Source: Ignavibacteriales bacterium (GTDB lineage: Bacteria; Bacteroidota; Ignavibacteria; Ignavibacteriales; Melioribacteraceae). From it: a stretch of 64,000 bases of DNA. Position numbers and translations under genes: made by a program. Below the pieces are notes generated by a model. That model ran no database searches. It was given only the letters and a program-made list of their open reading frames with translations, and was not told the DNA's origin. Numbering within the stretch: the first letter of the stretch is position 1; each line of letters opens with the position of its first letter. The stretch is from contig JAPLFG010000003.1 in assembly GCA_026390795.1 (NCBI GenBank), forward strand, positions 2,418,001-2,482,000, read 5' to 3'. Shown one piece after another: positions 47,416 to 64,000 of this stretch.

Positions 47416-47451
47416 CTGTTTTCCGGTGTTATGATTAGGCTGAATCGTTTT

Positions 47452-47483
47452 TTTGTTTACCATCCCATTTTTCCATAAATTTG
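47452..47483 (+). promoter_or_regulatory. Putative promoter of yicC-gmk-rpoZ
   Basis: TTTG at 47452-47455, 20 bp gap, TAAATTTG at 47476-47483: the best match in the window to the Bacteroidota promoter pattern. The leader is about 18 nt. Confidence 0.7.
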
Positions 47484-47507
47484 GCATCACTTTTTTAAGG
47501 ATTCCGG

Positions 47508-48383
47508 ATGATTTCAAGTATGACTGGCTATGGCAAAGGTATAGTCCAGAAAAAGGATATTACAATTGAAGCCGAGATCAAAAGTCTCAACAGCCGGTAT
47601 TTAGATCTATCTCTCCGTGTTCCAAAATTTTTAATGAATAAAGAATTTGAAGTCCGTGAAAAAGTAAAAAGCCGCATCAAACGGGGCAAAGTTTATCTTA
47701 ATGTTACCGTCCGTAAAGGCGACTTTGAAGAAAAATTCAATGAAATAGATCCGACTGCAGTTAAGTTTGCGGTCAAACTTCTGAAAGAAATTAAAAAATC
47801 CGCGAAGATAACCGAAAAGTTGAAACTGACCGATCTGATGCTCTTTCAAAATATGTTATTCAAAGACGATAACGAACAGGCAAGTGAAGAATTCGGTTTA
47901 GTAGTGGAAGCTATTGACGGTGCAATTGATAATCTGAACAGCATGCGTGAAGCTGAAGGAAAGGAACTTGAAAAAGAACTTCGTAAGAGAGTCCAGATAA
48001 TTGAGGACGCTCTTAATAAAATTGAGAGCGCTTCAGATCAAAGTGTAAAAGCATATTTTGAAAAAATAAAAGAGAAAGCAAAACAATTAGTAGCCGAGTT
48101 TTCCAACAACGAAGATCGGCTTAATATGGAACTTGCTCTAATAGCCGAACGTGCCGATGTTACTGAAGAATGTGTGAGATTACATAGTCATATAAAAATG
48201 TTTTTAGATACTATTGCAAAATCCGACGATGCCGGACGGAAACTGAACTTCATAGTTCAGGAAATGAACCGTGAAGCAAATACAATTAACTCTAAATCGG
48301 TTTCATCCGAGATTTCTCACAGCGGAATTTCAATAAAAGAAGAGATAGAAAAAATCCGGGAACAAATTCAGAACATTGAGTAA
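47508..48383 (+). CDS. yicC: YicC family endoribonuclease
   Basis: A 291-residue YicC protein. The N-terminus MISSMTGYGKGIVQK is the family hallmark, followed by EIKSLNSRYLDLSLRVPKFL; the C-terminal DUF1732 end has GRKLNFIVQEMNREANTINS with KSVSSEISHSGISIKEEIEK. YicC proteins are RNases that act on small RNAs or mRNAs in E. coli. The gene is 3 bp upstream of gmk and opens the operon. Confidence 0.95.
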   Translation: MISSMTGYGKGIVQKKDITIEAEIKSLNSRYLDLSLRVPKFLMNKEFEVREKVKSRIKRGKVYLNVTVRKGDFEEKFNEIDPTAVKFAVKLLKEIKKSAKITEKLKLTDLMLFQNMLFKDDNEQASEEFGLVVEAIDGAIDNLNSMREAEGKELEKELRKRVQIIEDALNKIESASDQSVKAYFEKIKEKAKQLVAEFSNNEDRLNMELALIAERADVTEECVRLHSHIKMFLDTIAKSDDAGRKLNFIVQEMNREANTINSKSVSSEISHSGISIKEEIEKIREQIQNIE

Positions 48384-48386
48384 AGC

Positions 48387-48959
48387 GTGGCAAATTATAA
48401 AGCAAAACTATTCGTATTTTCTGCGCCTAGCGGTTCCGGCAAAACTACTATAGTCCGTGATGTGCTGAAGAATTATCCGGATTTTGTTTTTTCGATCTCG
48501 GCAACAACAAGAAAGAAAAGATCGAATGAGAAAGACGGGATTGATTATTTTTTCATAAATGAAGAAGAGTTTCAAAAGAAAATAGAAACCGGCGAATTTG
48601 TTGAGTGGGAGAAATTTTACGATTATTATTACGGTACATTGAAAAGTTTTGTTGACGGAATGCTGGCAAAAGGAATTTCAACAGTTTATGAAGTTGATGT
48701 AAAAGGCGCGCTTAGAATAAAGAAAAAATATTCAAATTCTGTTTTAATCTTTATTGCACCGCCAAGCATTGAAGAATTGAACAAAAGATTGAAAAATCGT
48801 AATACAGAAACAGACGATGATCTGAATAAAAGAATTGAACGCGCTGAAATGGAATTGAGTTTTAAAGATAAGTTCGATTATATAGTTTCCAATATTGATC
48901 TGGCACAAGCAAAAATAGAAGTAAAAAGAATTATTGAAAAAGAATTAACAAAGGAGTAA
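48387..48959 (+). CDS. gmk: Guanylate kinase
   Basis: A 190-residue guanylate kinase (GMP + ATP to GDP + ADP), starting at GTG 48387. Visible are the P-loop FSAPSGSGKTTIV (about residues 11-23), the GMP-binding SISATTRKKRSNEKDGIDYF, FVEWEKFYDYYYGTLKS and the lid region KRLKNRNTETDDDLNKR. It is followed by rpoZ with a 5 bp gap, as in many bacteria. Confidence 0.97.
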   Translation: MANYKAKLFVFSAPSGSGKTTIVRDVLKNYPDFVFSISATTRKKRSNEKDGIDYFFINEEEFQKKIETGEFVEWEKFYDYYYGTLKSFVDGMLAKGISTVYEVDVKGALRIKKKYSNSVLIFIAPPSIEELNKRLKNRNTETDDDLNKRIERAEMELSFKDKFDYIVSNIDLAQAKIEVKRIIEKELTKE

Positions 48960-48964
48960 TAATC

Positions 48965-49258
48965 ATGGCAATAAAACCAATTAATTTGACGAAGATAAAA
49001 GCAAGTATCCCGAATCTTTATGAAGCTGTTATCATTGCTGCAAGGCGCGCTCGTAAAATTAACGACGATAATAAAACTGAATTCAATTCATTGCTAAGTA
49101 CAATGACTACCGGGCATGAAGATGAATTCGAAGAGAGAGAAAATCCGGAACAAATGAAACTTTCTCTTGATTTTGAAAAAAGGGAAAAAGCCCATATTCA
49201 AGCGCTTAAAGAGTTAGTTGATAATAAAATTGAATACAGGTATAAAGACATAAAGTAA
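48965..49258 (+). CDS. rpoZ: RNA polymerase omega subunit
   Basis: A 97-residue omega-type subunit. The recognised segment is IPNLYEAVIIAARRARKIND, the central RNA polymerase Rpb6/omega helix. The position after gmk supports the assignment. Omega assists assembly of the core polymerase and, in many bacteria, ppGpp binding. It ends the yicC-gmk-rpoZ operon before a terminator. Confidence 0.92.
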   Translation: MAIKPINLTKIKASIPNLYEAVIIAARRARKINDDNKTEFNSLLSTMTTGHEDEFEERENPEQMKLSLDFEKREKAHIQALKELVDNKIEYRYKDIK

Positions 49259-49276
49259 CCACCGGAGTTGTTTTTC

Positions 49277-49313
49277 AAAAGCGGAGATACTTAAAAGCAT
49301 CTCCGCTTTTTTT
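49277..49313 (+). terminator. Rho-independent terminator after rpoZ
   Basis: AAAAGCGGAGAT and ATCTCCGCTTTT arms with a T run of eight. Confidence 0.9.
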
Positions 49314-49447
49314 TATTCCAATCCTCCAACCACTCTTTTAAGACCAATCTCATCTTAACAATTTTTTTACGCAGGTTGGCACTCATTTAACAGCCTCATT
49401 ATAAATCAAAAATTATCTTTGCCGCGAAATTAAGAGAGAATATTACG

Positions 49448-49762
49448 ATGAATCTAATATTTGAAAATTTCATGGTACGGGATAGATCAATGATTGATTT
49501 AAAAAAATCATTCATGAAAAATAAATCAAGATTAGTCCTAGCCGCTTATATCCTATGGGCTGCTATTTCATTACTGCTTGCAAAATTACATCCGGATAAG
49601 TACGCTGCTTATTTTACCGATCTACCTGACAATCTTAAAAATATATCACCTTTTTTTCTCTCGTTTGCATATCTGGTTTTATTTATTCCTTCAATAACAG
49701 TTACGGTCTTTTTTGCTATCTATTTTTTATATGATGTTGTAAAGGATAGGGTGTTCAAGTAA
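49448..49762 (+). CDS. Small two-helix membrane protein upstream of the kdp locus
   Basis: A 104-residue protein with a basic N-terminus and two hydrophobic segments: about residues 29-45 (LVLAAYILWAAISLLLA) and about 68-95 (FFLSFAYLVLFIPSITVTVF). No family was recognised. It lies 55 bp ahead of the porin gene and on the same strand as the kdp genes; it could be part of the same transport locus, but this is only position. A GAGAGAA stretch serves as Shine-Dalgarno. Confidence 0.5.
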   Translation: MNLIFENFMVRDRSMIDLKKSFMKNKSRLVLAAYILWAAISLLLAKLHPDKYAAYFTDLPDNLKNISPFFLSFAYLVLFIPSITVTVFFAIYFLYDVVKDRVFK

Positions 49763-49817: not shown

Positions 49818-50906
49818 ATGAAAACCATTTTGTCAATACTCAAAAAATTATTTTTTGTTTGTTTGATTGCAGTAAGCACTCAAACTGTTATCTATCCGCA
49901 GGATTCAGAGGATACGTTTAAAACAACAATAAATGGGCTATTGGATGTTTATTACTCAAATAATTTTTCTAATCCGGTGAACAAAGAGAATAAATATCGA
50001 AATTTTGATGTAGCCGAAAACCAGTTTAATGTTAGTCTGGCAAAATTGACAATTCAAAAGCAGGCTTTTCCAATAGGATTTAAACTGGAACTTGCATTTG
50101 GTTCTACGGCAGATATCGTTCAAAGCGCAGAACAGAATAAGTCTTTAAACTTTTTGCAGCAGGCATATGTAACTGCATTATTACCTATAGGAAAAGGATT
50201 GACCGTCAATGCAGGTAAAATGCTTACACATATGGGTGAAGAAGTCATTGAATCAAATCTAAATCCAAATTATAGCAGATCGTTACTATTCGCATACGCA
50301 GTTCCTTATTACCATGTTGGAATTTGCGCTTCGTATCCCGTGCTCGATAATCTATCCCTTACCGGATATATCTATAACGGCTGGAATTTTATGAATGATA
50401 ATAACAAGGAAAAAACTGCAGGCGCTACGATAAATTGGTCTCCGGTTAGTAATCTAACCATTATTGAAAATTGGATTGGCGGTATTGAGCAGCCGGATTC
50501 ATTAACTGTAAATGCTAGAAATGTATTCGATACAATTATAAATTTAACATTGTCAGATAAATTCTTCCTTTCTTTTAATGCTGATTATGGATACGAGAAA
50601 CAAGCGAACGGAGAACTTGCAATCTGGAAAGGGATTGCTGTAACTGGAAAATATTCTTTCTACGAAACTTCTGCCTTAGCGTTAAGATGTGAAGCATACT
50701 CCGATCCTTATGGATTTACTACAGGTACTGTGCAGGATTTAAAAGAAATTACTCTTACGTATGAACAGAAATTTTTTCCCAACTTACTGGTACGTTTGGA
50801 ATATAGAAGAGACTGGTCAAATGTAAAAGTTTTTGATGAAGGCAATAAGATTGGGACAAAAAACGACCAGAATACTATACTGATAAGTTCTGTTATTTCA
50901 TTTTAG
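49818..50906 (+). CDS. Outer-membrane beta-barrel porin (BBP2/OmpL-like) linked to kdp
   Basis: A 362-residue exported protein with a signal peptide (LKKLFFVCLIAVSTQTVIYP) and alternating amphipathic beta strands through the length; VTALLPIGKGLTVNAGKMLT and GEEVIESNLNPNYSRSLLFA are typical of the BBP2/OmpL-like porin family, as is its ending in Phe (SVISF). It is the only channel gene next to kdpFABC and may let K+ cross the outer membrane. The kdp operator-like repeats (50946) lie between it and kdpF, so the porin itself may be transcribed separately. Confidence 0.75.
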   Translation: MKTILSILKKLFFVCLIAVSTQTVIYPQDSEDTFKTTINGLLDVYYSNNFSNPVNKENKYRNFDVAENQFNVSLAKLTIQKQAFPIGFKLELAFGSTADIVQSAEQNKSLNFLQQAYVTALLPIGKGLTVNAGKMLTHMGEEVIESNLNPNYSRSLLFAYAVPYYHVGICASYPVLDNLSLTGYIYNGWNFMNDNNKEKTAGATINWSPVSNLTIIENWIGGIEQPDSLTVNARNVFDTIINLTLSDKFFLSFNADYGYEKQANGELAIWKGIAVTGKYSFYETSALALRCEAYSDPYGFTTGTVQDLKEITLTYEQKFFPNLLVRLEYRRDWSNVKVFDEGNKIGTKNDQNTILISSVISF

Positions 50907-50995: not shown

Positions 50996-51034
50996 ATAAT
51001 TAAAATAAGTTTTGACCAACATTTGGGAGTAAAA

Positions 51035-51130
51035 ATGGAAAGTACATTTGAATTGGTTCTTACATTGATCGTGGCATTAGCTCTTTTTGTGTATGTGATT
51101 TACACATTAATTAAACCCGAAAAATTTTGA
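51035..51130 (+). CDS. kdpF: KdpF-like small subunit
   Basis: A 31-residue peptide with a single membrane helix (FELVLTLIVALALFVYVIYT) and a short polar end (LIKPEKF). Its position immediately ahead of kdpA, its size and its helix match KdpF, a stabilising subunit of the Kdp K+ ATPase. GGGAG, 4 bp-plus upstream, supports the ATG. It is too short to be found by usual length filters. Confidence 0.8.
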   Translation: MESTFELVLTLIVALALFVYVIYTLIKPEKF

Positions 51131-51172: not shown

Positions 51173-52867
51173 ATGATAACGACACATGAAATAATTCAGT
51201 TAATTTTTTACATAGTTGTTTTAACGGCACTAGCGCCTTTGTTGGGCGGCTTCTTCGCAAAAGTATTAAAAGGGGAGAAAAGTTTTTTGACCCCGGTATT
51301 CGGAAAAGTTGAATCGTTTATTTATAAATTCTCCAGAATTAATCCATCAGAAGAGATGGATTGGAAGGTGTATACTTTTGCATTGATGGCTTTCAATCTT
51401 TTCGGAATATTATTTTTGATAGTAATTCAGCTAATTCAATCGTATCTGCCGTTAAATCCGCAAGGACTTCCGAATGTCGAACTAACACTTGCAATAAACA
51501 CTGCTGTTAGTTTTGTAACAAATACTAACTGGCAGTCTTATGGTGGAGAAACAACGCTGGGATATTTTGTTCAAATGATCGGATTAGCAGTTCAAAATTT
51601 TGTAAGCGCAGCAACTGCAATTGCCGTTTTGTTAGTTTTAATACGCGCTCTGAAAACTAGAAAAGGAAATACGCTTGGAAATTTCTGGGTGGACTTAACC
51701 CGCTCAACAATTTATATACTTTTACCGCTGGCTATAATTTGGGCTTTAGTATTAGTCAGCCAAGGAGTTGTACAAACTTTTTCTTCTTATAAAGAAGTAA
51801 CGATGCTTGAAGGAGCTAAGCAGGTAATTCCTTTGGGTCCGGCAGCGTCTCAGATCGCAATAAAAATGTTGGGAACAAATGGCGGAGGTTTTTTTAATAC
51901 AAACAGCGCGTTCCCATTCGAAAATCCAACACCATTTTCAAATTTCATCCAAGTGCTTGGAATACTTTTAATCTCTGCATCTTTAGTATTTACTTTCGGC
52001 AGAATGATCGGTTCGAAAAAACATGCATGGGTAATTTACGGTGTTATGCTTTTCCTTTTTGTTGCGGGATTGTCTGTTTCGATCTACTCGGAATATTCAA
52101 CTAATCCAATATTTCATACAAGCGGATTGATGGAAGGAAAAGAATCCCGCTTCGGAGTAGCCAACAGTGTCCTCTGGTCAACTGCTACAACATCTGCATC
52201 GAATGGTTCGGTTAATGCGATGCACAGCAGTTTATCTCCTCTTGCAGGAATGATCACACTATTTAATATGGAGATTGGTGAAATTATTTTCGGCGGAGTC
52301 GGATGTGGTCTCTACGGAATATTGCTTTTTGTATTTCTTACTGTTTTTATCGCGGGATTAATGATTGGTAGAACTCCAGAATATTTGGGTAAGAAGATCG
52401 AATCGAGAGAAGTGAAATGGTCGATTGTTGCAATACTATTGCCAAGTGCAGTTATCCTTCTCTTTTCAGCAATCGCAATGAAAACTACTGCAGGATTATC
52501 AAGTCTCGCTAATGCAGGACCGCATGGTTATTCTGAAATACTTTATGCTTTTTCTTCCGCGGCTGGAAACAACGGCAGTGCATTCGCAGGATTAAATGCT
52601 AACACCACGTTTTATAATTTAATGATGGCACTCGGAATGTTCATCGGTAGATTCGGTGTGCTGATTCCGGTGATGATTATTTCCGGAAGTCTCGTGAAGA
52701 AAAATATTACACCCGCTTCATCTGGAACTCTTTCAACAGAAAATTTTCTGTTTGGTCTTCTACTAGTTGGCGTAATTCTAATTGTTGGAGCGTTGACTTT
52801 CTTCCCGGCGTTATCGTTCGGTCCCATTATCGAGCATCTGCTTATGGGGCAGGGAATTACTTTTTAA
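51173..52867 (+). CDS. kdpA: Potassium-transporting ATPase subunit A
   Basis: KdpA, 564 residues, the K+ channel-like subunit with about ten membrane helices. Four P-loop regions are visible, with filter-like sequences [60 protein letters not shown] and [18 protein letters not shown]. It opens kdpABC, 42 bp after kdpF. It forms a complex with KdpB, KdpC and KdpF for high-affinity K+ uptake. Confidence 0.97.
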
Positions 52868-52893
52868 ATGCTTTGAAAAATAGGAATATGAAA

Positions 52894-54990
52894 ATGAACT
52901 CAAATAAATCTATCAGTAGGAAACTTTTCGACAAAAAAATAATTACCCAAGCTATAATAGATTCTTTCAAGAAGCTGAATCCAAAATTTTTAGTAAAGAA
53001 TCCTGTTATGTTTATTGTAGCTGTTGGTGCTCTTCTTTCAACGATATTCTTTTTTAAAAATATTTTCATCGGTACTTTCTCAGGATTCAATCTGCAAATA
53101 ATTATTTGGCTTTGGTTCACTGTTTTGTTTGCCAATTTTGCAGAAGCTGTTGCAGAGGGAAGAGGAAAAGCTCAGTCAGAAAACCTCCGAAAAACCCGCA
53201 CTCTAACAATTGCCAGAAAGTTATCTAACGGCAAAGAAATAAATGTTTCTGCAGTTGAACTTCGAATCGGTGATCTTGTTGTTTGTGAAGCGGGAAATAT
53301 TATTCCGTCCGATGGAGTTGTAATAGAAGGTGCGGCAAGTATTGATGAATCTGCTCTAACCGGTGAATCCGCTCCGGTAATACGAGAAAGCGGCGACGAT
53401 AGGAGCGTTGTTACCGGCGGAACAAGAGTTATCAGCGATAGAATAGTAATTAAAATTACTGCCGATCCAGGTGGAACTTATTTAGACAAAATGATTTCAC
53501 TTGTTGAAAGTGCAAAACGTAAAAAAACTCCAAACGAAATTGCACTCTCCACCCTTATCGCCGGATTCAACCTTGTATTTTTACTTGTCGTTCTAACTAT
53601 AAGAGTTTTTATTGAATACCATCAGACAGGTTCTGTGAATGTTAGTGATATTGTTTCTGTACCGGTTCTTGTTGCACTTTTAGTTTGTTTGATCCCTACT
53701 ACAATCGGTGGTTTGTTAAGCGCGATTGGTATCAGCGGTATGGATCGATTACTGGGTCATAATGTAATAGCCATGAGCGGAAGAGCAGTTGAAGCTGCTG
53801 GCGATATAGATGTTCTCCTTCTTGATAAGACCGGTACAATCACATTAGGGAATAGAATGGCTTCCGTATTCATTCCTGTAAAAGGGGTATCTAATGAAAG
53901 TTTAGCGGACGCAGCTCAGCTTTCTTCTTTATCCGATGAAACACCTGAAGGAAGATCTATTGTAGTTCTTGCAAAGGAAAAATTCGGTTTGAGAGGAAGA
54001 GACATTTCAAAATTGGATGCACATTTTATTCCGTTCAGCGCTCAAACGAGAATGAGCGGTGTGGATATTCATCCTTCGAACGGTGAATCAAAAAGAATTA
54101 TACGTAAAGGTTCGGCGGATGCAATCAAAAAATATGTTGAGAGCAACGGCGGAATTTTTAGTCCCGATGTTCAGCAGATAGTAGACAATTTTTCCAAAGC
54201 CGGTTCTACGCCGCTTGTAGTTGCGGAAAATTTTGAAGTGCTCGGAGTTATCGAACTAAAAGATATTGTAAAAGGCGGTATAAAAGAACGGTTTGCACAG
54301 TTGAGAAAAATGGGAATCAAAACAGTCATGATAACCGGCGATAATCCGCTTACAGCAACAGCAATTGCGGCAGAAGCAGGAGTAGATGATTTTATAGCTG
54401 AAGCTAAACCTGAAGATAAACTAAAACGTATCCGTGAAGAACAAACCGGCGGCAGAATGGTAGGTATGATCGGCGACGGAACGAATGATGCACCGGCACT
54501 TGCTCAAGCCGATGTCGGTATAGCAATGAACAGCGGAACGCAGGCTGCACGCGAAGCAGGTAACATGATTGATCTCGATAGTAATCCGACAAAGCTTATT
54601 GAAGTTGTAGAAATCGGCAAACAGTTATTAATGACGCGCGGCTCCCTCACAACATTCAGTATAGCGAATGACGTGGCAAAATATTTTGCCATCATTCCGG
54701 CAATATCAACTTTCCTTTACGCAACACATTTTACGGATGGGCCGCTTTCAGCTCTTAATATAATGAAACTTGCAACTCCTCAAAGCGCAATATTAAGCGC
54801 AGTAATTTTTAATGCGTTGATTATTGTCCTTTTAATTCCGCTGGCTCTTAAAGGTGTAAAATACAGACCGCAGGGAGCCGCGGCTATCTTAAGAAGAAAT
54901 ATTTGGGTCTATGGTGTTGGAGGATTGATCGTTCCGTTCATCGGAATAAAATTAATAGACTTATTCATAAATGCAATTAAATTGGTCTGA
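52894..54990 (+). CDS. kdpB: Potassium-transporting ATPase subunit B
   Basis: KdpB, about 698 residues, a P-type ATPase. The catalytic Asp311 is in [14 protein letters not shown], the TGES motif is [15 protein letters not shown], the hinge motif is [20 protein letters not shown] and the nucleotide domain has [15 protein letters not shown] chose ATG 52894 because AGGA at 52882 lies 8 bp ahead; ATG 52888 and TTG 52873 are in-frame alternatives. It begins 26 bp after kdpA. Confidence 0.97.
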
Positions 54991-55019
54991 TAAACTTTGA
55001 AAATTTGAGAGATAATAAA

Positions 55020-55595
55020 ATGAAAAAACAACTTTTAATTACTATAAAATATTTTGCTGCAATAACTATTGTTACCGGAATAATTTACCCGCTCTTTATC
55101 ACATTAATTTCAATTATAGTTTTTCCCGGAAAAGCATCCGGCAGCTTAATTGAAAAAGACGGTAAGATAATCGGCTCAGAATTAATAGGGCAGAAATTTG
55201 AAAGCGATAAATATTTCTGGTCCCGACCGTCTGCAATCGATTATAACCCGGCGCCTTCTGGTGGGAGCAATCTTGGACCAACGAGCGCCAAGTTAAAACA
55301 ACTCTACGAAGATAGAATGAAAACTTTTGTAGAAAAAAACACGGTTAAAGATGCTTCAACTATTCCGAATGAAATGTTCTTTGCATCTGCAAGCGGAGTG
55401 GATCCGCATATTTCACCTTTATCAGCAATGCTGCAGGTTGAGAGAGTTGCCAAAGCTAGAAATTTTGATAATTCAAAAAAAGAGAAATTAATTCAATTAA
55501 TTAATTCGTTAACTGAAAAACCCCAGTTTGGCTTTTTGGGCAATTCGGTTGTTAATATACTTTTATTAAATTTGAACTTAGATAAAATGAATTGA
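55020..55595 (+). CDS. kdpC: Potassium-transporting ATPase subunit C
   Basis: KdpC, 191 residues, with one N-terminal membrane helix (KYFAAITIVTGIIYPLFITL) and a periplasmic domain with the family's LIGQKFESDKYFWSRPSAID, YNPAPSGGSNLGPTS and SASGVDPHISPLSAMLQVER. ATG 55020 is used; an upstream in-frame TTG is less likely. It ends 4 bp before the first kdpD-like gene. Confidence 0.96.
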   Translation: MKKQLLITIKYFAAITIVTGIIYPLFITLISIIVFPGKASGSLIEKDGKIIGSELIGQKFESDKYFWSRPSAIDYNPAPSGGSNLGPTSAKLKQLYEDRMKTFVEKNTVKDASTIPNEMFFASASGVDPHISPLSAMLQVERVAKARNFDNSKKEKLIQLINSLTEKPQFGFLGNSVVNILLLNLNLDKMN

Positions 55596-55599
55596 TGTT

Positions 55600-57633
55600 A
55601 TGAAAGAAACTGCAGAACATCGAAGACCCGACCCGGATGCACTTTTAGCAGAAATAAAGCGTTCTGAAAATAAAAAAGGATCACTGAAGATATTTTTAGG
55701 TTACGCTCCTGGTGTAGGCAAAACTTATTCGATGCTCCTTGAAGCACATGCTCTGAAGAAAAGAGGTCTTGATACTGTAGTTGGATATGTTGAAACACAT
55801 AAAAGAGAAGAAACAAATGCGTTGATTGAAGGTCTTGAAGTTCTGCCCCGAAGAATAATTCCTTACAGAGATATGGTTTTTGAAGAGATGGATGTTGATG
55901 CCATCATTAAAAGGAATCCGCAAACTGTTCTTATAGATGAATTAGCACATACAAATATTTCTGGCAGCCGTCATCCGAAACGATACTTGGATGTAAAAGA
56001 AATTCTTGAACACGGTATTGATGTTTTAACGACTGTTAATATCCAGCATTTCGAAAGTCAAAATGATGTTATTGAACAGGTAACAGGGATTAGAGTTCAA
56101 GAGACAATCCCGGATAGTATTCTGGATGAAGCCGATGAAATTAAATTAGTAGATGTTCCGCTGGAAGAATTGTTATTAAGACTGAAAGAGGGAAAGGTTT
56201 ATTTACCGGAACAGGCAAAACGTGCAATCGAAAATTTCTTCCGGAAAGGAAACCTTAACGCTCTTAGAGAAATTACGCTTCGAAAAGTTGCTACAAAAAT
56301 AGACAGCGAACTTCTTAATTATATTAAGACAAAATCGATTGACAAACCGTGGCATGTTGTAGATAAAATAATGGTCTGTGTCTCACCAAGTCCGTATTCA
56401 AAGCAAATAGTTAGACGCGCTTATAATATGGCGAATGATGCCGGAATAGAATGGTTTGCCGTATATGTATCGATTCCGAAATTCAAAGATCTTTCGCAAA
56501 AAGAACAGACGTATCTTTCGGATGCATTGAACCTTGCTGAAAATTTGGGCGGGAAAATATTTACACTTTCCGGTTCGGATATAGCCGATGAAATTATAAA
56601 TTTTGCTAAAGATAAAAATATTACACGCGTTCTTATTGGTAAACCTCTTAAATCGCGTTTTCGTGAATTCTTAAAACGATCTCCAACATCAAAACTGATG
56701 TACGATCAGAGTTCTTTTGATATCCAGTTGATTACACCATTTTTAGAAACTGACGCCTCCGCCAGTCCGGAAATATTAAAAACAGACAAGAAGAAATTCA
56801 ATTTCAATAATTATCTTTTTTCTTTTTTAATTCTAATTCCGGTTACCATAATTGTCGGCATCCTAGAAAAATTATTCTCAATTCCCTCTTTCGAAATTAT
56901 ATTTATAATTGCGCCTATAATCTCCGCGATCTTTTACGGTTTAGGACCGGCGATCTTTACTTCCATCTCGAGCGTTTTATTTTATGATTATTTTTTTGTT
57001 GAACCGCGGTTAAGTTTTACAATCAGCCGACCGGAACATTTAATAAGTCTATTAATTTTTCTTGTTGTCTCTTCATTGGTGAGCCAATTAATCAATCAAT
57101 CGAAGAATCAACATTCAGCATTAAGAATGAGATTAGAGAGCTTGAGCTTGATTGAGGATTTGAGCAAAGACCTTCTGAACATTCCTTTGCATGAAGAAAT
57201 TCTTAAAGATTTTGATAAGTCGATCAGTCAGCCGGATAATATTTTAAAGATTATCAAAACATCAATCCAGGAAGAGCTTTCTCGAATCGTTATCAAATAT
57301 ATCAGTAAAGTTGTACAAGCCGATTGCATCATGATGCTGAAAGATGAAAAAAATAATCTTCGTACTTTATCAAAGAGCTCTTCTAATGTAGTACTGGATA
57401 CGAAAGAATTAGGAGTTGCAGATTGGACATTTAATAAAAATTTAATTGCCGGCTGCGGAACAGATAATTTAACAGAGATTCTTTGGTTCTTTCTTCCTCT
57501 CTCTATTCCTTCCGGTGGAACTATAGGAGTTGTTGGATTTAAATATAATTATAAAGACATTTTATTAGAGCAAAGAAATCTGATAAATACAATATCTAAA
57601 CTTTCGTCTATTGCGATTGCAAATTGGATTTAA
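55600..57633 (+). CDS. KdpD-like sensor without a histidine kinase core
   Basis: A 677-residue KdpD paralogue. In order: N-terminal KdpD domain with Walker A GYAPGVGKT (residues 34-42) and TVLIDELAHTN; universal stress protein-like domain (about 250-375); membrane block of about four helices (403-500, DUF4118-like); GAF-like domain (about 505-677). It then stops with TAA. The His box and ATPase domain present in the next gene are absent, and only 49 bp separates the two, so no second-frame kinase part exists here. It probably works as a partner or modulator of the full KdpD. It is clearly not a recent copy, because identity to the second is moderate. Confidence 0.85.
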   Translation: MKETAEHRRPDPDALLAEIKRSENKKGSLKIFLGYAPGVGKTYSMLLEAHALKKRGLDTVVGYVETHKREETNALIEGLEVLPRRIIPYRDMVFEEMDVDAIIKRNPQTVLIDELAHTNISGSRHPKRYLDVKEILEHGIDVLTTVNIQHFESQNDVIEQVTGIRVQETIPDSILDEADEIKLVDVPLEELLLRLKEGKVYLPEQAKRAIENFFRKGNLNALREITLRKVATKIDSELLNYIKTKSIDKPWHVVDKIMVCVSPSPYSKQIVRRAYNMANDAGIEWFAVYVSIPKFKDLSQKEQTYLSDALNLAENLGGKIFTLSGSDIADEIINFAKDKNITRVLIGKPLKSRFREFLKRSPTSKLMYDQSSFDIQLITPFLETDASASPEILKTDKKKFNFNNYLFSFLILIPVTIIVGILEKLFSIPSFEIIFIIAPIISAIFYGLGPAIFTSISSVLFYDYFFVEPRLSFTISRPEHLISLLIFLVVSSLVSQLINQSKNQHSALRMRLESLSLIEDLSKDLLNIPLHEEILKDFDKSISQPDNILKIIKTSIQEELSRIVIKYISKVVQADCIMMLKDEKNNLRTLSKSSSNVVLDTKELGVADWTFNKNLIAGCGTDNLTEILWFFLPLSIPSGGTIGVVGFKYNYKDILLEQRNLINTISKLSSIAIANWI

Positions 57634-57682
57634 AAAGTAATATAACTGTGCTAAGGATAAATTTGGAGTTAGATAAAATAAA

Positions 57683-60331
57683 ATGAACACAAATGAAGAA
57701 AATCGCCCGGATCCATTGAAACTGTTTGACTCAAATCAACAAGAAGACGCTGAAGAGAAAAAAGGAAAGCTTAAGATTTTCTTTGGTATGTGTGCCGGTG
57801 TTGGGAAAACCTATTCATTGCTAGAAGCCGCGCTTAAAGCTAAAAAAGATAAAATTGATGTAGTAATCGGTTATGTTGAACCTCACAACCGTACCGAGAC
57901 AGCAAACTTATTAGTAGGATTGGAATCTCTATCTTTAAAAGAAATTGAATATAGAGAAACAATATTCAAGGAAATGGATCTCGATGCAATTCTAACTCGC
58001 AAACCGAAGTTGGTATTGGTCGATGAACTTGCGCACTCAAATATTCCGGGATCAAGACATGTTAAACGATTCCAGGATGTTTTGGAAATTCTGAATAATG
58101 GCATTGATGTTTACACAACGTTAAATGTTCAACATCTTGAAAGCCGTGCTGAAACAGTTTTCCAAATTACCGGCGCTCAGATTAGAGAGACAGTTCCGGA
58201 TTCAATATTTGCCAATGCCGATGAAATTGAATTGGTTGATATTACACCCGATGAACTTCTGCAAAGATTGAGTGAAGGAAAAATTTACACTCCAGAGCAA
58301 TCACAGCAAGCAATCGAGAATTTCTTCCGCAAAGGTAATTTAACCGCACTTCGTGAAATGGCTCTCCGGCTAACTGCTGAGCGAGTAGATTACCAATTGC
58401 GCGATTATAAAACCGAAAAGAATATAACAAGTGCCTGGAAGTCTGGACAAAGATTAATGGTTGCAATAAGTCCCAGTCCTTATTCTGCAAAATTAATACG
58501 ATGGACACGCCGGCTGGCATATACTATGGAAGCATCATGGTTAGCAGTTTATGTGGAGACAGATCAAAAAGTATCTGAAGAAAACAAGGAAGCTTTAAAA
58601 AAGAATTTTGAATTGGCTAAAGAATTAGGAGCTGAAATTATTATAACTAATGATATAGATATTGTTCATGCTTTAATTCGCATCGCTTCTGAAAATAATG
58701 TTACGCAGATAATTGTCGGTAAATCTAGAGAATCCGGTAGATCGAAAGTGGGCGAAAGACTTTTAAAAGAGAGCGGAGAGATTGATATTTATATTGTTGG
58801 AGGTGAAAGGACAGATTCCAGAAAAATAATAGGTAGCCTGATTTCAAAATTTCAATCGGGCAAATATCAGTATCTAATTTCTTCTTTAATAATTAGCACT
58901 ATGATATTAATTTGTTTTTCATTGTTGGATCAAATCGGTTATCAAACTGTTTCATTAATACTACTTTTAGTTATTTCATTAATGCCGCTACTAAATCTTG
59001 GCAGGGGTCCAATGATTCTTGCCGCGTTAATCGGTGCTCTTAGCTGGGATTACTATTTTATTCCGCCGCAATTCACGCTTCATATAGGCAGAGTTGAAGA
59101 TGTGTTAATGTTATTTGTCTTTTTTATTGTAGCAACAATTTCTGGTGTTCTTACTTCAAAATTGAAAGCTCAACAAAAATTGGTAACAATTCGAGAAAAA
59201 CGTACAAATGCACTTTACAATCTTCTTAAAGAATTGGCTACAGGAAAAAGCCTTAACGATCTGATTGAAATCAGCATAAAAAATATTAAAAAAGTTTTTG
59301 ATGCAGATGTCGCAGTAATATTTCCGGTTAATGAAAAAAAACTTTCTCCGCAGCCACATTCCGCAAGTACATTTCAATTTGCAGATTTGGAATGGCATAT
59401 CGCCAATTGGAGTTTTTTTGGCGGGCAGAAAGCAGGAAAATTCACCAACACTCTTCCCACTTCTGATGCTCAATTTATTCCATTAATTGGAGCAAAAAGT
59501 AAGATCGGAGTGATTGGACTAAAATTCAGAAATGATGAACCTTTACATTTTGAACAAGAAACTCTTCTTGAAGCGTTTGTAAATCAAATTACAATTAATT
59601 TTGAAAGAGAACTTCTAAATGAATTGGCAAAAAAATCTTTGGTTTTCTCGGAATCGGAAAAATTATATAAGACATTATTCAATTCAATTTCTCATGAATT
59701 AAAAACTCCCATCACAACAATTATCGGCGGCATCAGTTCGTTCGCAGATGATTCGATCTCCGAAAATAAAGAGATGAGAAAAAATTTGAGTAAAGAAATT
59801 AATATTGCCGCCGAACGATTGAACCGGCTTGTTGAGAATTTGCTTGATATGACGCGTTTGGAATCCGGACAAATGAAATTAAGAATGGACTGGCATGAAA
59901 TTCCGGATTTGATTGAAAGTGTCTTAAAAAGATTAAATAATGAATTAATTAATCATACTGTAAAAACAGAGATACAGGAAAACATTCCTCTTCTCAAATT
60001 CGATTTCGGATTACTTGAACAAGCATTGATAAATGTTATTCATAATTCGTTAATTTACACTCCGGAAAATAGTACTATTCAAATTAGAGTAAAGGAAGAA
60101 AAAAATAATTGTGTAATTGAAATTTCTGATGACGGGCCGGGTTTTGCTGAGGAAACACTTAATAAATTATTTGAAAAATTTTATAGAATACCCGGAACCA
60201 AAACCGGCGGAACCGGACTTGGATTGTCGATTGCTAAAGGATTTATTGAAGCACACACCGGAAGCATTTCGGCAAAAAATAGAAAAGATGGTGGTGCTGT
60301 TTTTATTATAAATATTCCGATTCAAAAATAA
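57683..60331 (+). CDS. kdpD: Sensor histidine kinase KdpD
   Basis: A full 882-residue KdpD: N-terminal KdpD domain with Walker A GMCAGVGKT (35-43) and LVLVDELAHSN; USP-like domain (about 250-372); four-helix membrane block (about 395-500, including IPPQFTLHIGRVEDVLMLFV); GAF domain (about 515-655); HisKA box with His671 in SISHELKTP; HATPase with NVIHNSLIYTP, SDDGPGF and TGLGLSIAKGF. It senses low K+ or turgor and phosphorylates KdpE (60343), which starts 11 bp later. The first, kinase-less gene precedes it by 49 bp. Confidence 0.95.
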   Translation: MNTNEENRPDPLKLFDSNQQEDAEEKKGKLKIFFGMCAGVGKTYSLLEAALKAKKDKIDVVIGYVEPHNRTETANLLVGLESLSLKEIEYRETIFKEMDLDAILTRKPKLVLVDELAHSNIPGSRHVKRFQDVLEILNNGIDVYTTLNVQHLESRAETVFQITGAQIRETVPDSIFANADEIELVDITPDELLQRLSEGKIYTPEQSQQAIENFFRKGNLTALREMALRLTAERVDYQLRDYKTEKNITSAWKSGQRLMVAISPSPYSAKLIRWTRRLAYTMEASWLAVYVETDQKVSEENKEALKKNFELAKELGAEIIITNDIDIVHALIRIASENNVTQIIVGKSRESGRSKVGERLLKESGEIDIYIVGGERTDSRKIIGSLISKFQSGKYQYLISSLIISTMILICFSLLDQIGYQTVSLILLLVISLMPLLNLGRGPMILAALIGALSWDYYFIPPQFTLHIGRVEDVLMLFVFFIVATISGVLTSKLKAQQKLVTIREKRTNALYNLLKELATGKSLNDLIEISIKNIKKVFDADVAVIFPVNEKKLSPQPHSASTFQFADLEWHIANWSFFGGQKAGKFTNTLPTSDAQFIPLIGAKSKIGVIGLKFRNDEPLHFEQETLLEAFVNQITINFERELLNELAKKSLVFSESEKLYKTLFNSISHELKTPITTIIGGISSFADDSISENKEMRKNLSKEINIAAERLNRLVENLLDMTRLESGQMKLRMDWHEIPDLIESVLKRLNNELINHTVKTEIQENIPLLKFDFGLLEQALINVIHNSLIYTPENSTIQIRVKEEKNNCVIEISDDGPGFAEETLNKLFEKFYRIPGTKTGGTGLGLSIAKGFIEAHTGSISAKNRKDGGAVFIINIPIQK

Positions 60332-60342
60332 AATCTAAAACA

Positions 60343-61032
60343 ATGAGTGTAAAACCGGTAATACTGATTATTGATGACGAATCTCAGATAAGAAAAATCT
60401 TGAGAATCACTCTTGAATCTGACGACTATAAAGTCATTGAAGCCGAAAACGGTAAAGACGGAATTATACAAGCGGCAACTGCGCACCCTAATCTTATAAT
60501 TCTGGATTTAGGTTTACCAGACCAGGATGGGTTTTCTGTCCTTCAGGAAATTAGAATGTGGAGCTCGTTGCCAGTGATGATTTTATCTGTTAGAAACTCA
60601 GAAGAAGATATAGTAAGAGCCCTCGATTTAGGAGCTGATGATTATCTGACCAAACCATTCTATACGGCAGAATTACTCGCCCGGATAAGAGCTAGTTTAA
60701 GAAGAGCTAGCCAGATTCAAGAGAGCAGTACATTTGTTAACGGCTCTCTAAAAATTGATCTTGTCTCAAGAACTGTTATAAAAAGTGACGAAGAAATTAA
60801 ATTGACTGCGACTGAATATTCATTACTAATACTTTTGGTGAAAAATTTAGGAAAGGTATTAACACATCAGTTGATATTGAAAGAAGTATGGGGTCAAAGC
60901 TATGTTGAGCAATCTCAGTCATTACGTGTATTCGTGGGACAGTTAAGAAAAAAAATTGAAGATGATCCGGCTCATCCCAAAATGATCGTTACTGAATCCG
61001 GAATCGGTTATCGAATGATAAATATCAAGTAA
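60343..61032 (+). CDS. kdpE: Response regulator KdpE
   Basis: A 229-residue OmpR-type regulator with a receiver (IIDDE at about 9-13, Asp55 in LIILDLGLPD, LTKPF at about 105) and a winged-helix domain (about 130-228; LTATEYSLLILLVKNLGKVL and RVFVGQLRKKIEDDPAHPKM, then ESGIGYRM). KdpE binds upstream of kdpF and turns on kdpFABC; candidate sites are at 50946. The gene ends the potassium locus. Confidence 0.95.
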   Translation: MSVKPVILIIDDESQIRKILRITLESDDYKVIEAENGKDGIIQAATAHPNLIILDLGLPDQDGFSVLQEIRMWSSLPVMILSVRNSEEDIVRALDLGADDYLTKPFYTAELLARIRASLRRASQIQESSTFVNGSLKIDLVSRTVIKSDEEIKLTATEYSLLILLVKNLGKVLTHQLILKEVWGQSYVEQSQSLRVFVGQLRKKIEDDPAHPKMIVTESGIGYRMINIK

Positions 61033-61137
61033 TGCAGATTTTTAAGAGAATAATTCACAACTCCCTTTCGCAAATACCTTCTTTTTTACTAAATTCATCC
61101 GTAGAAAATTCTTTATAACCCATCAAAAATTATTATT

Positions 61138-61890
61138 TTGAATTCAGACGATAAAAAATTATTAATCGAGGCAATTAAAGATCAGCGGGATCTGTTCGGT
61201 GATTTTTTGCTTGAAGACGTGAATAAACCTATGGAGGAAGCTTTGAGCAAAAGAACCATAGCAAATGAAGTAACAGTAAAAAGTGAAATCTCTTTAGTCG
61301 AAAATTTATTTGTAGAAGATTTTCAAAAAGCGGAATCATTAACTGACCTTAATAATCAAATCTGCAATTGCCAGAAATGCGCTCTAGGAAAAACAAGAAC
61401 TAAATTTGTTTTCGGTGTCGGCAATCCCAATGCAGATGCAATGTTAATCGGAGAAGCCCCGGGACGCGACGAGGATTTGCAAGGGGAGCCATTTGTCGGA
61501 CGTGCCGGCAAACTTCTTAACGACATTCTCAAAGCTGTTAAATTTGCGCGAGAAGATGTTTACATTGCAAATATTTTAAAATGCAGACCACCGAATAACC
61601 GTGATCCTCTGCCCGGCGAGATGGAAACATGTATTCCTTATCTTCACAAACAGATTGATCTCATTAAACCAAAAATTATTTTGTGTTTGGGAAGAGTTGC
61701 AGCAAACGGACTGCTCGATAAAAAATTATCGCTCGGTCAGCTTCGAGAAAGTATATACGATTTTAACGGTATAAAAGTAATGGCAACATATCATCCTGCT
61801 GCTTTGCTGCGTAATCCAAATTGGAAGCGCGGCTGCTGGGAAGATGTTCAAAAATTCAGAAAACTTTATGATGAATTAACGGCAAACTGA
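61138..61890 (+). CDS. Uracil-DNA glycosylase, family 4/5 (Fe-S type)
   Basis: A 250-residue protein starting at TTG 61138. The conserved core begins at about residue 75: [20 protein letters not shown] (Fe-S Cys pair), [20 protein letters not shown] (motif A, GEAPG-x-x-E/D), [20 protein letters not shown] (more cluster Cys) and [16 protein letters not shown] (motif B, HP). The enzyme removes uracil from DNA in base excision repair. An N-terminal extension of about 70 residues is weakly conserved. It lies 1 bp upstream of dnaB. Confidence 0.9.
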
Positions 61891-61891
61891 A

Positions 61892-63367
61892 ATGGCAAAA
61901 CGAATTATTACCCGGCAAAGCGGGAAAAAAGACGGTGATATTGAAAAACTAAAAGCTGCTTCAAAAATTCCTCCATCTGTTCCTGAAGTTGAAATGGCTG
62001 TCCTTGGTGCAATGCTGATTGATAACGAAGCTGTTCCCAAAGCGATTGAAATTTTAAAACCGGATTCGTTCTTCGATAAACGAAATCGGATTATTTTTGA
62101 ATCGATGTCCGCACTCTATGAATCGAATGAACCGATTGATACTGTTTCGGTTTATGAAGAGTTGAAAAAAGCAGGCAAAGGAGATGAAGCCGGCGGTGCC
62201 GCTTACCTTAGTAAACTTACTCAAGATATTTCTTCTGCAGCAAATATTGATTACCACGCTCGTGTGGTTCTTGAAAAATGGATTTTACGCCAGCTGATTC
62301 ATTCATCATTTGAAATTGCAAGCGCTGCATATGAAGGAAGAGAAGATGTTTTTGATCTGTTAGATGCTGCCGAAGCAAAGATATTTCAAATTTCCGAAAA
62401 GGGAATTAAAGAATCGTTTAAATCAATGGATAAAGCCGTTAAAGAAGCGCTCGAATTGATTGAGGCAATCCATTCTAAAAGTATAGGTACGTTTGCGGTT
62501 CCTTCCGGATTTTTTGAATTGGATGATCTACTTGGCGGTTTCCAAAAATCTGATTTGATTATTGTTGCGGCACGTCCTTCTATGGGTAAGACTGCATTCG
62601 CTATGTCCGCCGCACGCAATGCCGCAATCGATCACGGTGTTCCAATCGCAGTCTTCAGTTTGGAAATGGCTACGATCCAACTTGCGACACGATTAATTTC
62701 TGCCGAAGCACGCATTAATGCACATAACGTTCGTACCGGAAAATTTAAACCGGAAGAAGGCGCAAAGATTAGCCGCACAGTTCACAAATTGAGCAAAGCG
62801 CCTATTTATATTGATGACACGCCCGCAATTTCAATTCTTGAACTTCGCGCTAAAGCAAGACGGTTAAAGAATGAAAAAAATATCGGTTTGATAATTATAG
62901 ATTACTTGCAGCTATTAAGCGCTTCTTACAATATGGAAAGCCGGGAGCGTGAAATTTCTACAATATCCCGTTCATTAAAAGCTCTTGCAAAAGAATTGAA
63001 CATTCCTGTAATCGCGCTCTCACAGTTAAACCGTCAAGTTGAATCACGAACAGATAAGAGACCAATGCTTTCGGATTTGCGCGAGTCCGGTTCAATCGAG
63101 CAGGATGCGGACGTTGTAATATTTTTATACCGTCCGGAAGTTTACGGCATTACACAATTCTCTAGCGGTGATATGAATGGTGAAACTACTGAAGGTGTTG
63201 CAGAAGTAATAATCGGCAAGCAAAGAAACGGTCCTATAGGCGATGTGAAATTACGCTTCATAAAAGATTATGCACGGTTCGAAAATCTAGACCGCTTCAG
63301 GCAGCAGTTACCAGCGGGAGCTGAACAGGCGGCAATCACATCGGGAGCCGAGGATTTTCCAATATGA
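61892..63367 (+). CDS. dnaB: Replicative DNA helicase DnaB
   Basis: A 491-residue DnaB. N-terminal domain: VPEVEMAVLGAMLIDNEAVP and FFDKRNRIIFESMSALYES; C-terminal RecA-like motor: Walker A VAARPSMGKTAFAMS, then VAVFSLEMATIQLATRLI-type core, Walker B LIIIDYLQLL and IALSQLNRQVESRTDKRPML with SGSIEQDADVVIFLYRPEVY. It unwinds DNA at replication forks. No intein is present. Its stop codon overlaps the next gene's ATG. Confidence 0.96.
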   Translation: MAKRIITRQSGKKDGDIEKLKAASKIPPSVPEVEMAVLGAMLIDNEAVPKAIEILKPDSFFDKRNRIIFESMSALYESNEPIDTVSVYEELKKAGKGDEAGGAAYLSKLTQDISSAANIDYHARVVLEKWILRQLIHSSFEIASAAYEGREDVFDLLDAAEAKIFQISEKGIKESFKSMDKAVKEALELIEAIHSKSIGTFAVPSGFFELDDLLGGFQKSDLIIVAARPSMGKTAFAMSAARNAAIDHGVPIAVFSLEMATIQLATRLISAEARINAHNVRTGKFKPEEGAKISRTVHKLSKAPIYIDDTPAISILELRAKARRLKNEKNIGLIIIDYLQLLSASYNMESREREISTISRSLKALAKELNIPVIALSQLNRQVESRTDKRPMLSDLRESGSIEQDADVVIFLYRPEVYGITQFSSGDMNGETTEGVAEVIIGKQRNGPIGDVKLRFIKDYARFENLDRFRQQLPAGAEQAAITSGAEDFPI

Positions 63368-64000
63368 AAAAAATATTTTTGCTTGTTTTTGTATTGTGGT
63401 TCTCGTCCGATAGTTTCACGCAAACAATTTACACTCAGCAAGATGTGGATATTTGTAATTCCAAGTTTCAGTTAGCAGTTGATATAAATCTCTCATCGCT
63501 TCCAATCAATCAAGTAATAATTGAAATCGGAAAAAGTTTTCTCGGAACAGATTATTCCGCTGGTTCACTCGAAAAAGGAGATGAAGAAAAACTTGTAGTT
63601 CATCTAACCGGATTAGATTGTTATACATTTCTTGAATCGTCTCTTGTCTTTGCCAGATGTATTAAGGAAGGCAAAAACAGTTTTGATGATTATCAGAATG
63701 AACTTACAAACATTCGTTACCGGAAAGGAAAACTGGATGAATATCCTTCGCGGCTTCATTACTTCTCCGATTGGATCTATGATATGAACAAACGGGGAAT
63801 AGGTAAAGACATTACTAAAGAAATCGGTGGCAAACCTTACGATAAGAAAATTTATTTTATGAGCACACATATAGATGCTTACCGTCAATTAAAAAATAAT
63901 CCGAAATTTGTGGATGAGATTGCGAAAATTGAAAAAGAAATTTCTTCACGGAAATATTATTACGTTCCTCAAGAAGAAATTTCGAAAGTTGAAGATAAAA
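63364..64000 (+). CDS. DUF1460 exported protein, partial
   Basis: 212 codons are visible before the right edge. The ATG at 63364 overlaps the dnaB stop. The protein has a signal peptide (KKIFLLVFVLWFSSDSFTQ) and the DUF1460 (NlpC/P60-like amidase) features LGTDYSAGSLEKGDEEKLVV and LTGLDCYTFLESSLVFAR, in which the Cys of GLDC is the expected catalytic residue, then RLHYFSDWIYDMNKRGI. DUF1460 proteins are thought to act on peptidoglycan amide bonds. The C-terminal part, including the His, lies outside. Confidence 0.8.
   Translation, partial: MKKIFLLVFVLWFSSDSFTQTIYTQQDVDICNSKFQLAVDINLSSLPINQVIIEIGKSFLGTDYSAGSLEKGDEEKLVVHLTGLDCYTFLESSLVFARCIKEGKNSFDDYQNELTNIRYRKGKLDEYPSRLHYFSDWIYDMNKRGIGKDITKEIGGKPYDKKIYFMSTHIDAYRQLKNNPKFVDEIAKIEKEISSRKYYYVPQEEISKVEDK

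Follow-up and report, generated by a model that had tools for sequence, protein, structure and literature searches.

Judged from sequence comparison, the kdp locus in a 64,000-nucleotide stretch of an Ignavibacteriales genome (the whole stretch analysed, hereafter the window) is a mosaic of the two operon types of its genus. A kdpF-A-B-C-D1 segment of the type with a split KdpD has replaced the resident kdpFABC, with the resident kdpD2 and kdpE left in place; the two KdpD genes, D1 and D2, did not originate side by side, D1 having arrived with the pump and D2 being the resident sensor. We regard as probable the combined account in which this import took place and D1 serves as the off-switch of the imported pump, with D2 as the transcription sensor. 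The features of the locus are listed below in window coordinates, with identities to two congeners, G007 (split KdpD) and G010 (single full KdpD).

kdpF, 51035..51130, plus strand: 31 aa, read by eye and absent from the earlier, sequence-only reading of this DNA
kdpA, 51173..52867, plus strand: 93% identity to G007, 76% to G010
kdpB, 52873..54990, plus strand: contains the TGES motif (its serine is the phosphorylation site in E. coli); 95% identity to G007, 76% to G010
kdpC, 55005..55595, plus strand: 91% identity to G007, 62% to G010
kdpD1 (D1), 55600..57633, plus strand: 677 aa, with a KdpD domain of serine-kinase type, USP, four-helix membrane block (DUF4118) and GAF; DHp/CA absent
spacer, 57636..57686, plus strand: remnant of the resident kdpC tail, where the import has its right junction; sequence NITVLRINLELDKIK-stop, with a TGA that overlaps the kdpD2 ATG
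kdpD2 (D2), 57683..60331, plus strand: complete KdpD of 882 aa that includes HisKA and HATPase_c; resident gene, 88% identity to G010
kdpE, 60343..61032, plus strand: OmpR-type response regulator; resident gene, 96% identity to G010

The sequence-only reading had placed two KdpD genes between kdpC and kdpE, and both open reading frames are as it claimed, with kdpABC upstream and kdpE directly downstream. It was also right that each protein has an N-terminal KdpD domain with intact Walker A, a USP domain, a membrane block and a GAF domain; the PF02702 domain of each carries Walker A (G-X5-GKT) and Walker B (DE), and the two proteins are 36% identical over 665 aligned columns. In D1, Pfam places KdpD at 25-234, Usp at 255-366 and DUF4118 at 405-509, and lists neither HisKA nor HATPase up to E 1, in line with the claim that the first sensor lacks a kinase core; D1 is therefore not classed as a histidine kinase. 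Its GAF domain is not called by Pfam, and phmmer matches residues 564-671 to the solved GAF domain of E. coli KdpD (4qpr, E 9.6e-5), with other parts matching further solved KdpD domains (2r8r, 24-239; 7ji4, 255-378; 2ksf, 416-497). As had been noticed, the 677-aa protein terminates with this domain. The same end is found in all four orthologues, where it aligns with E. coli KdpD residue 646, 16 residues before the start of an artificial E. coli KdpD deletion (663-894). D2, correctly described as an 882-aa protein with HisKA and HATPase_c, exceeds the Pfam cut-offs for KdpD, DUF4118, HisKA (664-729) and HATPase_c (777-881), with Usp and GAF_3 slightly below theirs; its phospho-histidine is indeed His671, the H of SISHELKTP, aligned with E. 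coli H673.

Our genus sample comprised 12 genomes including that of the window, eight of them with a PF02702 match. D1 is carried by the window genome, G007, G003 and G006 at 677, 677, 676 and 677 aa, respectively, and the identical end in four species shows that it is not a fresh truncation. The gene behind D1 in G007 and G003 encodes 510 aa, with DUF4118, GAF_3, HisKA and HATPase_c listed but neither KdpD nor Usp; in G006 the contig end cuts a partner chain of this kind after 406 aa, and one small extra gene lies between it and D1. G010, G002, G004 and G009 have a single full KdpD. The genus holds an overlapping split KdpD, with membrane block and GAF kept on both chains. Loci read in other families of the order are mostly split into chains of ~380 and ~615 aa (nine loci, L043-L051, one kinase being cut by a contig end), and some have a full KdpD (L040-L042). 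Among the matches listed from overlapping samples of 116 relatives, 391 genomes of the class and 395 of the phylum, two adjacent intact PF02702 genes occur in the window genome only. A search of that genome for the 510-aa partner of D1 elsewhere did not find it, the best match being D2 (64%) and the next a kinase at 35%. A profile search of genome contigs with the D1 TM-GAF alignment gave two loci with D1 lengths as in G003 and G006, which we counted as those two cases, and 436 plasmid records match D1 at 452 places, the best 40 of the 436 being listed with one place each.

Several other loci have KdpD-related peculiarities of their own. G294 (L101 7724-9676) encodes an independent kinase-less KdpD of 650 aa that ends at the GAF domain and follows kdpABC; in the 17 kb around it, neither the D2 kinase core nor KdpE has a tblastn match up to E 1. 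A 197-aa ORF with a degenerate KdpD-type domain lies beside a full KdpD in G183 (L134 6362-6955; no Walker A by eye), and another of that length in G171 (L135 726-1319) adjoins a KdpE-like ORF, a 338-aa KdpC and KdpB. In G254 and G371 the KdpD pieces have the appearance of a single gene that was broken or cut. In G003, the kdpA of the D1 operon is immediately preceded by a further kdpB, truncated where the stretch ends, and by a KdpC of 340 aa containing two KdpC stretches (L034 16770-19001, L072 171-1193).

The mosaic is visible at the level of DNA. Window 51026-57635 matches G007 at 86%, and window 47000-49743 and 57634-63804 match G010 at 83 and 86%, so that the G010-type match gives way to the G007 type near 51026 and resumes at 57634; G010's own kdpA-C is just 71% identical to the window. 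KdpE is 96% identical to G010 and 88% to G007. The rpoB of the window genome is 99.2% identical to that of G005, 98.6% to G010 and 90.2% to G007 (none was found in G006), and the KdpABC grouping is the reverse, the window standing with G007 and away from G010. In trees that were quick, carried SH-aLRT support alone and excluded the 406-aa partner chain of G006, KdpABC of the window, G007, G003 and G006 separates from that of G010, G002 and G004 with support of 100 each, whereas for D2, its kinase core and KdpE the window falls with G010 (support 81-99). A segment that matches a different clade from its flanks could also come from an assembly chimera of two related genomes. This is scarcely credible here, as both flanks come from one clade, a chimera would need two joins at gene edges, D1 is 12% different from its nearest known copy, and the contig, at 2,555,035 bases, belongs to an assembly of 5 contigs that is 100% complete with 0.55% contamination.

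Both ends of the imported segment can be placed. On the left, the start of kdpF roughly coincides with the beginning of the blastn match to the split-type operons of G007 and G003, which puts the junction at ~51026-51035; upstream of kdpF, blastn gives the window no significant match to either operon type, short ones excepted. A porin-like protein (window 49818-50906) precedes kdpF; it has relatives at 45-50% identity among kdp genes of other families (L045, L114), and G007 has at this position a different porin-like protein, 21% identical to that of the window. The right junction lies inside the last codons of the resident kdpC. Read in the kdpC frame, the spacer shares 40 of 48 bases with the kdpC ends of G010, G004 and G002, against 32/48 with the window's own kdpC end and 33/48 with that of G007. 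Without its last four bases, 36 of 44 match G010 (shuffle mean 15.8, with 0 of 100,000 reaching 36). The kdpC/kdpD ATGA overlap of G010 is retained between spacer and kdpD2. As a G010-type kdpC tail with its ATGA overlap kept, the spacer marks the window lineage as the recipient, in which D2 once directly followed the resident kdpC.

Two adjacent paralogues might instead suggest that kdpD was duplicated in tandem within this lineage and that the first copy then lost its kinase part, and the kdpC tail before D2 could then stem from a kdpC end copied along with kdpD. We hold this to be very unlikely: the spacer is closer to the kdpC tails of G010, G004 and G002 than to the window's own, the N-terminal halves of D1 and D2 are 46% identical and far apart in the tree, and D1 groups with the D1s of G007, G003 and G006. 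An older duplication, or else an import, may lie at the origin of the split type. In one KdpD tree D1 falls outside the 380-aa KdpD/USP family and with the full-length-like group, on a long separate branch; in the tree set that includes D2 and KdpE, long branches (E. coli) attract it.

Recombination in the genus has acted on more than one piece. The 510-aa chain of G007 (L032 9205-10737) is itself a mosaic that changes type near D2 residue 700: membrane block and GAF are like those of G003 (split type), and the kinase core, like KdpE, resembles the full type. Recombination has therefore swapped the pump along with D1 and, as a separate exchange, the kinase core along with KdpE. The dS of D1 against G007 resembles that of kdpA and kdpB (0.87 and 0.63), which indicates that the segment did not come from a G007-like strain very recently and has been constrained since. 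Within D1, dS against the G007 D1 falls to 0.39 in the GAF part, compared with 0.76-0.88 before it, and this part is perhaps a separate recombination tract.

What could a KdpD without a histidine-kinase core do? The sequence-only reading saw in D1 an input arm with no phosphotransfer, which finds no support here: the available text of Silberberg et al. 2024 (PMC11018627) describes the E. coli KdpD domain as itself a serine kinase, with phosphorylation of KdpB Ser162 inhibiting KdpFABC. According to the same source this activity requires Walker A, D109, E110 and the W39/R190 pair but not the histidine-kinase core, as E. coli KdpD lacking 663-894 still phosphorylates and inhibits KdpFABC. D1 therefore has a plausible output of its own. 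On the grounds of E. coli homology and co-occurrence with the pump, D1 is most likely the pump's dedicated serine kinase, shutting off KdpB at high K+. It would be a membrane-bound enzyme whose KdpD domain phosphorylates the TGES serine of KdpB, its USP, membrane and GAF parts reporting that K+ is sufficient, upon which phosphorylation would follow and uptake would stop. D2, which retains a second serine-kinase-type domain with its residues intact, would act as the histidine kinase and, when K+ is low, drive transcription through KdpE. The pump would have travelled with its post-translational inhibitor, and the transcriptional output would have remained local.

In support of this assignment, all four D1s keep Walker A (G-X5-GKT) and the residues aligned with D109, E110 and R190, with Tyr at the place of W39. 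Across the seven genomes of two pump types that form the base of the comparison, with D1 in the window counting as one transfer, D1 accompanies one KdpABC lineage in 4/4 carriers and is found in 0/4 other congeners with a KdpD, and the kinase chain behind it varies between the 510-aa type and a full KdpD. This tie to one pump lineage and not to one kind of kinase chain, together with the G294 case, is what suggests D1 as off-switch and D2 as transcriptional sensor. The co-occurrence is, however, also expected if the linkage of kdpC and D1 was simply never broken. TGES is present in the window KdpB and in the six other KdpBs looked at, so the motif is general among these proteins and not specific. 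Moreover, D2 keeps the same serine-kinase residues, so D1 is not obviously needed, and the membrane block and GAF of D1 are also what a mixed sensor would need. The window genome has a diadenylate cyclase gene. Of the c-di-AMP motifs given in the available part of PMC4686210, FTAXY is found in 0/4 D1s and the E. coli-type RxxxR-X8-WxAVY is present in D2 and absent from the D1s, all four of which read S-x-S-X20-W-x-A-V-Y.

The sequence-only reading had proposed a heteromeric K+ sensor. In such a sensor D1 would pair with D2, as in congeners with the 510-aa chain, using membrane block and GAF for contact, and would tune the histidine kinase. Two-chain KdpD systems do exist in congeners, where DUF4118 and GAF are present on each chain of the split type and the remaining domains complement one another, and TM and GAF of D1 are constrained too (dN/dS 0.11 and 0.15). 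On the other hand, the kinase-less KdpD of G294 has no such partner nearby (17 kb), and D1 in the window stands beside a D2 of another lineage, with which it has no shared co-evolution. We therefore consider this pairing rather unlikely; with a plausible output of its own (PMC11018627) and an arrival separate from D2, D1 does not require a heteromer to explain it. A single-chain AlphaFold2 prediction of D1 from a 4-row alignment gave a poor model (pLDDT 47, pTM 0.27).

D1 could also be superfluous, a passenger of the pump with no present role beside D2 and its intact serine-kinase-type domain. This seems improbable given its dN/dS, which is 0.094 against G007 (over a path with dS 0.68) and 0.059 against G003, where dS is 2.6 and close to saturation; in the comparison with G006 it is saturated. 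Values per domain against G007 range from 0.05 to 0.15. The ORF contains no stop and no frameshift, and in its KdpD domain the window branch has 10 amino-acid and 22 silent changes compared with 10 and 18 on the G007 branch, so relaxation is not indicated. D1 is under purifying selection, at 0.06-0.09 well away from the value near 1 of an unconstrained gene.

Were D1 to perform the serine-kinase work, D2 might have more room for change in its own KdpD domain. One of five domains tested, D2 residues 1-235, shows 17 amino-acid changes in the window lineage against 0 in G010, at 18 and 19 silent changes, when the outgroups are G002 and G004 (Fisher p 1.3e-4); for residues 26-235 the counts are 11 and 0 (p 0.0014), and the kinase core has 5 and 5. 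With G041 as outgroup, however, the KdpD-domain test gives 10 against 5 (p 0.15), and control pairs without D1 lean the same way, short of significance (G002 vs G004, 11/3, p 0.34; G002 vs G010, 11/5, p 0.08). KdpE has 6 and 0 amino-acid changes in the window and G010 at 25 and 14 silent ones (p 0.16), and rpoB shows no excess (6 vs 8). These counts are suggestive at most of relaxed constraint on the D2 KdpD domain and of a hand-off to D1.

The available text of PMC11018627 raised whether the serine kinase or the histidine kinase is the more basic function of KdpD. Recombination seems to have separated the two functions at this locus, moving the serine-kinase chain together with the pump presumed to be its substrate and leaving the histidine-kinase chain with its response regulator. 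More speculatively, the pump and a dedicated serine-kinase off-switch might form a module exchanged independently of the transcriptional sensor, the resident D2 now ceding the serine-kinase job to D1 and becoming a pure transcription sensor; we regard this larger proposal as possible but doubtful. If it is true, a division of labour between D1 and D2 has been caught mid-course. The window genome, congeners with D1 plus the 510-aa chain and congeners with a single KdpD form a natural domain-swap set for asking which K+ signal leads to which output.

Kinase-less KdpDs of another build occur further afield. In one family of the class (f12, L102-L106) and one of the phylum (f37, L122-L126), they measure 554-642 aa and are fused at the C-terminus to PTS EIIA_2. 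All ten scanned have PF02702 and PF00359, an A-I-P-H phospho-histidine motif, intact Walker A and DELAH, and kdpC or kdpABC lies directly upstream in 9/10. E. coli EIIA-Ntr binds KdpD, and a natural KdpD-EIIA_2 fusion would unite an EIIA-Ntr-type partner and KdpD in one chain. Among the titles listed in a literature search, none reports such a fusion.

Kinase-less KdpDs and split KdpDs are already known; the overlapping split KdpD and the joining, by recombination, of its pump and D1 to a full-KdpD operon appear to be a new variant. Neither the titles listed in literature searches nor the available text of PMC11018627 gave an earlier description of an overlapping or tandem split KdpD or of its recombination, although a supplement may contain one. 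In the E. coli KdpD (b0695), one chain bears both functions; D2 has all its domains, and D1 corresponds to its residues up to 646. The closest in architecture to D1 are the truncated-DHp-CA KdpDs described in the available text of PMC11018627, which likewise have the serine-kinase domain, USP, membrane block and GAF without the histidine-kinase core, and for which a purely post-translational role was proposed. Those proteins, however, come mostly from species without KdpE, whereas the operon of D1 also contains kdpE and a full KdpD; for species with several KdpD versions, that survey counted the full-length one alone. The N-terminal half of D1 also matches NCBIfam NF038185 (KdpD_non_kinase; 399.3 bits, residues 8-378), below the 550-bit cut-off of a 373-aa family that lacks membrane block and GAF. 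Split KdpDs, in the parts available of PMC11018627 (a KdpD/USP chain and a TM/GAF/DHp-CA chain) and of PMC5716572 (kdpD-N and SK of Deinococcus radiodurans), resemble the present genus in having serine- and histidine-kinase functions on separate chains. In this genus, by contrast, the first chain also has the membrane block and GAF, and the second chain in the window is a full KdpD. A pseudokinase partner of a histidine kinase such as ChrS, as described in the available text of PMC9491836, is likewise a sensor without histidine phosphorylation of its own beside an active system; D1 differs from it in lacking DHp and CA entirely while keeping another kinase-type domain.
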